From contig CALPMA020000006.1 in the NCBI GenBank assembly GCA_943324545.2, forward strand, positions 1 to 35,215: DNA of 35,215 nt, in the 5' to 3' direction. Position 1 is the first letter of the stretch, and each line of letters opens with the position of its first letter. Positions 3,589 to 22,280 of the stretch are shown here, piece by piece. The position numbers and the translations under genes were made by a program. A model generated the notes under the pieces. That model ran no database searches. It was given only the letters and a program-made list of their open reading frames with translations, and was not told where the DNA came from. Source of the stretch: Chitinophaga pinensis. Lineage in GTDB: Bacteria; Bacteroidota; Bacteroidia; Flavobacteriales; Flavobacteriaceae.

Positions 3589-3650
3589 AATTTTATTTTA
3601 GGATGCGGAAATACAATTATATATACACTTCCCTAAATGGTATTTAGTTT

Positions 3651-4115
3651 CTAATTTTGTTTTTTTACTCGAACTGCCTCAGGAACGAGTTTTTCATATT
3701 CACCACCATTTCTAATAACATCGCGAACAATGCTAGAACTTATATAGGAGGTTTTAGCTGCCGTTAGTAAAAACACGGTTTCAATTTTGGAGAGTTTTCT
3801 ATTGGTGTGGGCTATGGCTTTTTCAAACTCAAAGTCGGCAGGATTTCTCAAGCCACGAAGGATATAGTTGGCCTTAATTTTTGCACATAAATCGATAGTC
3901 AAACCTTGATAAGTGATTACCGAAACTTTAGGTTCGTTTTTAAATGTCTCCTCAATGAATCTCTTGCGTTCTTCTAAGGAAAACATATATTTTTTTTCAG
4001 AATTAACACCAATAGCGATTACAATTTCATGAAATAATGGAATGGCTCTTTTAATAATATCTTCATGTCCTAAAGTTAAAGGATCAAATGATCCAGGGAA
4101 AACGGCTTTTTTCAT
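3651..4115 (-). CDS. coaD: Phosphopantetheine adenylyltransferase
   Basis: MKKAVFPGSFDPLTLGHEDIIKRA and YISSSIVRDVIRNGG motifs of CoaD; 154 aa. Confidence 0.97.
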   Translation of the reverse strand: MKKAVFPGSFDPLTLGHEDIIKRAIPLFHEIVIAIGVNSEKKYMFSLEERKRFIEETFKNEPKVSVITYQGLTIDLCAKIKANYILRGLRNPADFEFEKAIAHTNRKLSKIETVFLLTAAKTSYISSSIVRDVIRNGGEYEKLVPEAVRVKKQN

Positions 4116-4139
4116 ATGTATTTTTATAGGTGTAAAGAT

Positions 4140-5114
4140 TTAATTATTTAATGCCAATTCAATTGCGTTGGTGAACAATTCTTCTAATGAAATTCCAGCT
4201 ACTTTGGCTTGTTGCGGAATCAAACTTTCGGTGGTTAAACCGGGTATAGTGTTCATTTCTAGCATGTGCGGTTCTCCGTTTACAATGATGAATTCGCTTC
4301 TTGAGAAGCCTTTCATTTTTAAAATTTCGTAGGCGCGTTTTGCAATGTCACCTACTTTATGAGTCATTTCATCAGAAATTCTAGCCGGTGTAATTTCCTG
4401 AGATTTTCCTAAATATTTGGCTTCATAATCGAAGAAGTCGTTTTCTGAAACTATTTCAGTAATTGGTAAAACGGTAATTTTTCCTTGATAATTAATCACT
4501 CCTACCGAAACTTCTGTTCCGTCAAGGAAACTCTCAATAATAATTTCGTTATCTTCTTTATAGGCTACTTCAATGGCAATTGGCAATTCTGCAGCTGTTT
4601 TTACTTTTGAAATTCCAAAGCTAGACCCTGATTTATTTGGTTTCACAAAACAAGGTAAACCAACTTTATTTATAATTTCGGAAGTGTCAACGTGATCTCC
4701 TTTATTTAGATAATAGGAAGTAGCTGTTTTAATTCCGTAGGGTTTTAATACAGATAATAAATCGCGTTTGTTGAAGGTAAGTGCTGCTTGGTAATAATCG
4801 CATGAGGTTTGTGGTATTCCCAATAATTCGAAATAAGCTTGCATTAATCCATCTTCACCTGGAGTTCCATGGATGGCATTAAAAACTGCATCGAAGGCAA
4901 TTTTTGTTCCGTTTACTGTGGTTGAAAAATCGTTTTTATCAATTGGAAATTCAACATTATTAGCATCAACATAGACCCATTTTTCTTTGAAAACATGGAT
5001 GCGATAACCCTTAAATTTCGATTGATCTAAAAAGTTAAACACCACATTTCCACTGACTAACGAAATTTTATATTCGCTTGAATAACCTCCCATGATAATT
5101 GCAATATTCTTCAT
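4140..5114 (-). CDS. ddl: D-alanine--D-alanine ligase
   Basis: IIMGGYSSEYKISL, HGTPGEDG, FVKPNKSGSSFGISKV and HMLEMNTIPGLT motifs; 324 aa. Confidence 0.96.
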   Translation of the reverse strand: MKNIAIIMGGYSSEYKISLVSGNVVFNFLDQSKFKGYRIHVFKEKWVYVDANNVEFPIDKNDFSTTVNGTKIAFDAVFNAIHGTPGEDGLMQAYFELLGIPQTSCDYYQAALTFNKRDLLSVLKPYGIKTATSYYLNKGDHVDTSEIINKVGLPCFVKPNKSGSSFGISKVKTAAELPIAIEVAYKEDNEIIIESFLDGTEVSVGVINYQGKITVLPITEIVSENDFFDYEAKYLGKSQEITPARISDEMTHKVGDIAKRAYEILKMKGFSRSEFIIVNGEPHMLEMNTIPGLTTESLIPQQAKVAGISLEELFTNAIELALNN

Positions 5115-5147
5115 TTTTCACTCTTTAATTTAATTTTATTTCAAATA

Positions 5148-5218
5148 CCTAGCCCTGACAGAAGGGAAATCCCACGCTTTTTTGCGTGAATTGGAATGAT
5201 GGCAGGAAATAGCTCCTA
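5148..5218. repeat. Candidate interspersed intergenic repeat or structured RNA element (TAGCCC...hairpin...ATAGCTCCTAA)
   Basis: Outer blocks CCTAGCC (5148-5154) and GGCAGG (5201-5206) can pair as CCT(A)GCC/GGCAGG with a bulged A. Inner perfect hairpin CACGC-TTTTTT-GCGTG (5173-5188). The block order resembles an element I recall recurring in Flavobacteriia intergenic regions. Confidence 0.55.
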
Positions 5219-5271
5219 ATTAATAACAAAAATATCATTTTTTTTCAAACGAATTACCTTTACAATTTTTA

Positions 5272-5279
5272 TATCTTTG
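5272..5279 (+). promoter_or_regulatory. Predicted -7 promoter element (TATCTTTG) for the PASTA-rluD operon
   Basis: TAnnTTTG match 16 nt upstream of the ATG at 5296. Confidence 0.5.
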
Positions 5280-5295
5280 CAGTAAATTGAATACT

Positions 5296-5901
5296 ATGAG
5301 TTTGAAAGAATATTTAAAGAGTAAAGTTTTTGCGGTTCAAGTTTTTGTGGCTTTGATAATTATATTGGTATTAGGCTATTTATTCATGCATTGGTTAACA
5401 TTTACGACTGATCATGGAAATGAAATAACGGTTCCCAATTTGGGAAAAATGACGGAAGAGCAAGTAGAAGAAACAGTGGACGATTTGGATTTGGAATACG
5501 TTCTTTTAGATAGTGTCGATTTTAATCCTGCCTTTCCAAAGCACACGGTGGTGGAGCAAGATCCTATGCCGGGCGCAAAAGTGAAGAAGAATAGAAAGAT
5601 TTATATTAAGATAAATTCATCGGGTTTTACTATGGTTAGAATTCCTAATTTAATTCAAAAGACCTATCGTCAGGCGGGTCCAACATTAAAATCATTAGGG
5701 CTTGAACCAGGAGAAATTACCTACAAGCCAGATTTAGCAAAAGACATGGTTTTAGAAATGTATTGTAATGGTAAGAAATTAAATCCTGGAGATAAAATCT
5801 TTAAGTCTTCCAAAATTGATTTGGTTCTAGGCGATGGAAATCAGGGGTTTATTGAGCCAGCCGACAGCATTACTGCCGAAAAACCTTTAAATGAAGAATA
5901 G
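5296..5901 (+). CDS. PASTA-domain protein with an N-terminal transmembrane anchor
   Basis: One TM helix (VFVALIIILVLGYLFMHWL) followed by PASTA-type repeats (VPNLGKMTEEQVEETVDDLDLEYVLLDSV...VVEQDPMPGAKVKKNRKIYIKIN; IPNLIQKTYRQAGPTLKSLGLEPG). The ATG at 5296 is preferred over the TTG at 5287. Confidence 0.9.
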   Translation: MSLKEYLKSKVFAVQVFVALIIILVLGYLFMHWLTFTTDHGNEITVPNLGKMTEEQVEETVDDLDLEYVLLDSVDFNPAFPKHTVVEQDPMPGAKVKKNRKIYIKINSSGFTMVRIPNLIQKTYRQAGPTLKSLGLEPGEITYKPDLAKDMVLEMYCNGKKLNPGDKIFKSSKIDLVLGDGNQGFIEPADSITAEKPLNEE

Positions 5902-22077: not shown

Positions 22078-22204
22078 TTTTGGCGCGCCCTCGTTTGTAG
22101 GTTTAACTGAAATTCAAACTTCACTTCAACTCGGTCGTACTGTTCATTATAATCTCTCGCTACACGCGGTTCCGCAATAGGATTTCCATTTCCATCACTC
22201 ACTT
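22078..22204. repeat. Candidate degenerate copy of an interspersed Flavobacteriia intergenic repeat
   Basis: Block order TTTGGCGCGCCCTCG...CAACTCGGTCGTACTGTTCATTATAATCTCTCGCTACACGCGGTTCCGCAATAGGATTTCCATTTCCATCACTCAC. Locally GC-richer than its surroundings, with internal palindrome GGCGCGCC and stem GCGG-TT-CCGC; no ORF. Resemblance to a recurring element is from memory. Confidence 0.45.
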
Positions 22205-22280
22205 AACTAGTGGTGAATTTCACAATTCGATAAAATATTTACTTTATTTTAATATTAACTTTACCTTAAATTAATTGTAA

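Follow-up and report, generated by a model that had tools for sequence, protein, structure and literature searches.

A worn Flavo-1 copy between ddl and a PASTA-domain gene, and evidence that its family may consist of mobile hairpin elements

The ddl/PASTA gap holds a slightly degenerate Flavo-1 copy

Within the 35,215-nucleotide stretch of DNA analysed here (the window), the gene for D-Ala-D-Ala ligase (ddl; 4140-5114, minus strand) and a PASTA-domain gene (ORF 5287-5901, plus strand; an RNA pseudouridine synthase gene comes next) diverge from a gap at 5115-5286. What is the element at 5148-5218 inside this gap, and to what kind of family does it belong? A first-pass annotation, made from the sequence alone, had described the region as free of ORFs and built around a perfect CACGC-T6-GCGTG stem, and had likened it to an intergenic element that recurs in Flavobacteriia, in which the outer blocks are conserved, the central hairpin varies and the function is not settled. 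The region indeed contains no ORF of at least 80 amino acids, and direct reading of the sequence shows the stem to be exact, 5173-5177 pairing with 5184-5188 around a loop at 5178-5183. Also found there are TAGCCC..GA and TAGCTCCTAA, and the element to which the region was likened can be given a name: it is Flavo-1 (RF01705), to which no function is assigned in PMC2864571 and PMC9723704.

At lax thresholds, Flavo-1 was the sole cmscan match in the 801 bp around 5148-5218. At 5147-5213 of the plus strand, the window copy matches the whole of the model (positions 1-76), with 39.0 bits and an E value of 1.1e-6. This score lies just below the RF01705 gathering cut-off of 42 bits, which is why a default Rfam scan of the window, run at that cut-off, returned no match. 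The copy is of the short form and occupies 5147-5219 (+), with a core from T5150 to A5207 and a tail that extends to 5219; an alignment of 73 copies places the 5' edge at T5150.

The base of the hairpin is formed by CCTG (5154-5157) and CAGG (5203-5206). According to the cmscan alignment, the 5' arm that follows (5158-5172) holds the G.A loops (A8, GA, GGA), an AAT stem and a bulged C, and leads into the variable apical hairpin CACGC-TTTTTT-GCGTG (5173-5188), of a kind often seen in the host and in genome G036, and less often in G010. The 3' arm (5189-5202) is partly degenerate. The helix is interrupted by the mismatches C5171.A5189 and G5164.A5196, each arm lacks the central base in its first 3x3 loop, and position 9/-1, which is T-A in nearly all other copies, is C-G. 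The 3' tail AAATAGCTCCTAA (5207-5219) is moderately conserved, as judged from per-position information in 73 copies.

The window copy has the ends, core pairs and loops of RF01705, and is by these features a member of the family; in comparison with curated Flavo-1, it is below the cut-off and partly degenerate. It is filed here as a degenerate member because thirty other host copies, as well as the orthologues at the same ddl/PASTA site in G003, G004, G005 and G010, exceed the cut-off. The feature is thus an uncatalogued, slightly degenerate Flavo-1 member, ordinary and worn when taken on its own.

A second copy lies in the window at 22129-22212 on the minus strand (RF01705, 41.4 bits), flanked by the genes for a tRNA-ribosyltransferase (TGT) and for a protein with a sulfatase domain. 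It belongs to a subfamily with GTGAG...GACC ends, also seen at loci L031, L163, L165, L180, L232 and L248. The ends of this subfamily read GCGTGAGGGAT...AGCCCGACCC, followed in some copies by GGTCACGCC, which is able to extend the outer stem, and its pair 5/3 (numbered as below) is G-C instead of C-G, a compensating change.

The conserved core folds as one imperfect hairpin

The outer blocks CCTAGCC and GGCAGG had initially been proposed to pair with one another, a proposal that did not survive comparison: when the four pairs that can be tested are scored across 22 long-form copies, only 58% of cells are paired, one of the pairs never forms, and there are no compensating changes. The hairpin base that is supported, its equivalent pairs being essentially invariant or strongly covarying in 140 copies and in the 22 long copies, comprises C5154-G5206, C5155-G5205, T5156-A5204 and G5157-C5203.

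Covariation, as anticipated at first pass, was found and is very strong in the conserved core of the 140 copies, in which pairs are numbered from the T of TAGCCC (0) and the G of GCnGGA (0). Pairs 5/3 and 7/1 are essentially invariant. Pair 6/2 occurs as TA in 65 copies, CG in 44, AT in 19, TG in 6 and GC in 4, and is paired in 98.6% of copies versus 56% after shuffling; the corresponding values for pair 10/-2 are 93.6% and 51%. Pairs 14/-6 and 15/-7 covary as well, and the loop position 12/-4 does not. The lengths of the two arms also agree, both being long in 64 copies and both short in 58, with a handful mixed. Two 3x3 loops interrupt the helix with near-invariant opposed G.A and A.G, the second loop being different in the short-armed class.

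Of the two strands, the one represented in Rfam tolerates G-U more often than A-C pairs, by 27 to 9 in short copies (P 0.004) and by 38 to 17 in the long form (P 0.006), and is therefore identified as the folding strand. As the copies are related to one another, neither these changes nor the covarying ones count as independent events. Folded alone, the window piece was not unusually stable relative to shuffled sequences (z of -1.2 on the plus strand and -0.1 on the minus strand). The evidence for the structure is consequently comparative, drawn from relatives of the window copy.

A long form of about 134 nucleotides

A half-site scan revealed copies with halves approximately 120 nt apart, and 22 of these widely spaced copies align across about 134 nt. 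Four long copies, when folded, each gave a single continuous imperfect hairpin with z values from -4.6 to -7.8. The alignment has 37 consensus pairs, with both-sided changes in 23; its cells are paired in 90.3% of cases, as opposed to 75% when shuffled and 41-53% when slid, and the covariation score is 0.435 versus 0.158. The inner part reads GAGCGAC...GGAAGCTC.

The model built for this form, R1, finds copies of about 134 nt in most Flavobacterium genomes that possess Flavo-1, its raw counts at the lax threshold including short copies. R1 also detects both copies in the window, at 29.2 bits for that in the ddl/PASTA gap and 25.0 bits for the second. Five copies of about 134 nt are present in the host outside the window (C78:9940-10075, C3:28223-28356, C9:4552-4688, C79:6498-6631 and C10:28904-29037). 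In an even draw across the phylum, R1 matched in 12 of 148 genomes, seven of the 12 being from the same genus. Of the ten top long-form loci, eight did not reach any Rfam cut-off. The long (about 134 nt) and short (about 60-80 nt) forms have identical ends and may occupy one orthologous site. The long form is an overlooked and almost unannotated variant that mostly escapes the Rfam model, and it goes beyond the known family.

Copy number and distribution

The prediction that the element would recur in its genome was borne out, with about 50 copies in the host: in an assembly of 1.97 Mb that is 85.5% complete, there are 53 matches at E<=10, 49 at E<0.01 and 30 above the gathering cut-off. In three species, each genome contains 42-45 occurrences of a 17-base pattern for the 5' half, and none of the pattern in reversed reading. 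Neither a single copy nor a lack of covariation, the two outcomes named at first pass as refuting the idea, was therefore observed. The expected differences in presence between species were likewise observed, congeners having no copies (G018, G020), one to four (G024, G033, G032, G002) or as many as 82 (G036), with G013 and G007 also among the species with many. A blastn search of plasmids and phages, a weak test with so short and divergent a query, found no Flavo-1.

Mobile element or structured RNA

Flavo-1 is listed as a candidate RNA (PMC2864571, Weinberg et al. 2010), and the Rfam type of RF01705 is 'Gene; sRNA'. The reading preferred here, with a probability of roughly 55%, is that the Flavo-1 family behaves not as a small-RNA gene but as a set of short mobile hairpins that are non-autonomous, and that it is probably recognised as single-stranded DNA. 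The copies are multiple, intergenic and patchily distributed, with a sharp 5' end and, on one strand, a G.A-looped hairpin kept through compensating changes. A trans-acting enzyme would recognise the folded single strand, most likely DNA made available by replication, repair or transcription, and would insert it close to gene ends. Continued spreading or gene conversion would homogenise the copies within one genome, and conversion could rewrite old interiors in place. Between two of the functions suggested at first pass, a mobile non-coding repeat is favoured and a stand-alone RNA gene disfavoured.

That Flavo-1 is instead a functional structured RNA, either a small RNA acting in trans or a protein-binding element of UTRs, which spreads as a module, is rather unlikely. 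Its status as a candidate RNA speaks for this reading, as do the strand-specific covariation and the G-U pairs of the Rfam strand, and several matches in F. psychrophilum fall within transcribed regions at the 5' side (PMC9723704). On the other hand, the transcript map of that species places Flavo-1 sense or antisense in transcripts, with many copies outside any, and without consistent expression (PMC9723704). A range of 0 to 82 copies within one genus also argues against an RNA function.

The type of apical loop offers a further means of distinguishing the two. UUCG loops were used by the discoverers of Flavo-1 to argue that the STAXI motif is RNA and not single-stranded DNA (PMC2864571). In 77 of 134 Flavo-1 apical loops, T makes up 75% or more of the bases; a single loop is GNRA, and UUCG does not occur. 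By the STAXI yardstick, Flavo-1 therefore looks like DNA.

Gene context was assessed for 167 copies with two clear neighbours in the host, G036, G010 and other species, long ORFs being taken as genes. Both neighbours are antisense to the Rfam strand for 74 copies and both sense for 39, while 41 copies lie in divergent and 13 in convergent gaps. The excess of antisense over sense placements (P 0.0013), close to twofold, counts against the RNA reading, and it recurs among the long forms (15 antisense, 5 sense). An impression of random orientation relative to neighbours, gained from about 72 copies, was overturned by the count of 167. The 5' end of Flavo-1 points toward a gene start in 115 cases versus 52. 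About one third of antisense stops are 8-18 nt from the core, and the 3' end often adjoins a stop codon. At L193, L243, L113 and L012, the stop codon of the adjacent ORF is supplied by the Flavo-1 tail CTCCTA or CTTCTA on the other strand.

No conserved motif is present in the 20 nt upstream of TAGCCC in the 73 aligned copies, and the element therefore carries no promoter of its own, which again weighs against an RNA gene. In the window, consensus matching suggests a likely ddl -7 box, TATTTTTG of the TAnnTTTG type (5227-5234, minus strand), in a region kept in same-genus species both with and without Flavo-1. A likely -7 box for the PASTA gene, TATCTTTG (5272-5279, plus strand), conserved across species, is located downstream of Flavo-1. 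From these putative promoters, only the strand complementary to Flavo-1 would be transcribed, into the ddl leader, and not the Rfam strand. Together, loop type and gene context are suggestive of folded single-stranded DNA, rather than RNA, as probably the acting form.

Filled and empty orthologous sites

The ddl/PASTA site is filled in G000, G001, G003, G004, G005, G006, G010 and G015, holds a decayed copy in G019, and is empty in G002, G008, G009, G011, G012, G013, G017, G023 and G024. A second site with both states lies between convergent symporter and CoA-binding genes. Here, the two stops overlap in 'TAATA' in G009, G012, G026 and G032 and in 'TAAAA' in G011, while in G000 and G035 the stops are separated by a short Flavo-1, and in G007 and G029 by a long one. 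The TAAT/TAATA present at this site, a candidate target-site duplication, may only reflect stop codons kept by selection.

In comparisons among G000, G010 and G036 in which both flanking genes matched, orthologous copies had the same orientation in 32 of 32, several loci being counted in more than one comparison. This constancy indicates either inheritance or strongly directed insertion. Conversely, the inner stems of orthologous copies are no more alike than those of random pairs (0.53 versus 0.51, P 0.2), whereas the orthologous flanks are more alike. At the variable core pairs, orthologues show 37 both-sided differences, 8 one-sided and 12 broken, and the structure is retained although neutral flanks are nearly saturated. 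Location and orientation are thus inherited while the inner stem turns over. Furthermore, the nearest relative of a copy lies in its own genome in 57-59% of cases, versus 34% expected.

These observations bear on whether Flavo-1 might be a fixed chromosomal DNA hairpin, protein-binding or chromosome-organising, which is selected in place with little mobility while its stems drift by compensation. The identical site and orientation in all 32 comparisons, and the survival of structure between nearly saturated flanks, are as this reading would have it. However, some congeners have no or almost no copies, orthologous sites are filled in some species and empty in others, the copies within a genome are more alike than expected, and two complete chromosomes show no strand pattern along their length. 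A fixed DNA element is for these reasons unlikely.

The preferred reading of Flavo-1 as a mobile element has its own difficulties in the same data. Orthologous copies are old and have remained at their sites, and transposition on the lagging strand would give the chromosomal strand pattern that is not seen. The dissimilarity of orthologous inner stems is sufficiently explained by structure-keeping drift, but the likeness of copies within a genome needs spread or conversion inside that genome. It is conceivable, though doubtful, that the interior is rewritten in place by a mobilising or converting system, such that site and orientation are long inherited and stem or form is swapped for the current versions of the genome, with the 134-nt form and its extra conserved loops as the complete substrate from which the short forms derive. 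If true, this would be an unusual route to persistence for a repeat family.

Search for a mobilising enzyme

REP-type repeats are mobilised by RAYT/TnpA-REP transposases of the Y1 family, and Flavo-1 resembles them in its ecology: it is short and intergenic, and its imperfect hairpin is read from one strand only. In addition, subclass 2.6 TnpA-Y1 genes of Bacteroidetes are reported to have atypical flanking structures (PMC6006769), and in G036 one RAYT pair lies beside Flavo-1. Nevertheless, PF01797 (Y1_Tnp) is missing from the host assembly (85.5% complete) and from the copy-rich G004, G029 and G030, a full Flavo-1 lies within 1.5 kb of only 1 of 30 Y1 loci, which is about chance level, and the ends of Flavo-1 (5' TAGCCC, 3' AGCTCC) bear no GTAG or CGTC tag. 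With neither co-occurrence nor linkage, RAYT/Y1 is not supported as the mobiliser, and a REP-type origin is very improbable and largely refuted.

The G036 pair, at locus L155, consists of tandem RAYT genes at 2210-2665 and 3767-4228, with a full Flavo-1 at 4947-5024 and a copy of the 5' half near 3605, the two having similar flanking sequence. The RAYT genes themselves adjoin different hairpins, of the TCCCGTTAGGGAC type. The half-site scan gave no clear gene-sized autonomous parent between half-sites, for G036 among the matches listed. The ORFs between close copies in G036 and G010, inspected by eye, looked like ordinary chromosomal genes, the RAYT pair excepted. No mobilising enzyme emerged from the Y1 profile, the half-site scan or these ORFs.

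Finally, an intrinsic transcription terminator, possibly bidirectional, is highly implausible and was rejected, since, despite the share of copies 8-18 nt from a stop codon, the locations are wrong (41 divergent and only 13 convergent) and the Rfam strand has no T-run after the hairpin, its tail AGCTCC giving way to A-rich sequence.

Relation to known systems and variant ends

REP/REPIN sequences with their RAYTs (PMC2817692, PMC3116915, PMC6006769) are, like Flavo-1, short, multi-copy, intergenic imperfect hairpins of patchy distribution with one recognised strand. Flavo-1 differs in being longer, in its G.A loops, and in having neither the GTAG/CGTC tag nor a linked Y1 transposase.

Other systems offer partial parallels. 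The attC sites of integrons are recognised as a single strand in folded form, in which certain unpaired bases are conserved and the terminal hairpin varies, and they occur in cassette arrays. Flavo-1 appears similar to attC in these traits of the fold, but its copies are dispersed singly and not in such arrays. MITEs, ERIC and NEMIS-type miniature elements are non-coding, multi-copy and intergenic, and their insertions are polymorphic between relatives, all of which holds for Flavo-1 as well. Unlike for these elements, no parent insertion sequence was identified for Flavo-1, and covariation keeps its structure more than its sequence.

Since 2010, catalogues have carried Flavo-1 as an sRNA without assigning it a function. 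In relation to the Rfam model, the present data add the form of about 134 nt and describe copies that behave less like an sRNA gene than like mobile DNA, and they suggest that the family be studied as a mobile element, probably acting at the level of DNA. For such work they assign the folding strand, define the 5' end and document both filled and empty sites as well as a long form that annotation largely misses, and the responsible genes can be sought in species that have either no copies or more than 60.

The ends of individual copies also vary. An alternative 3' tail, GGACACGAGCGTAGCGAACTGACGAAGT or similar, replaces AGCTCCTAA at L021, L053, L067 and L162. An extension like GAAAnCGnnTGCCC stands just before TAGCCC in the ddl/PASTA gap of G001, G003, G006 and G015, and also at the unrelated locus L045 of G006, which hints that the 5' part may be longer in some of the copies.
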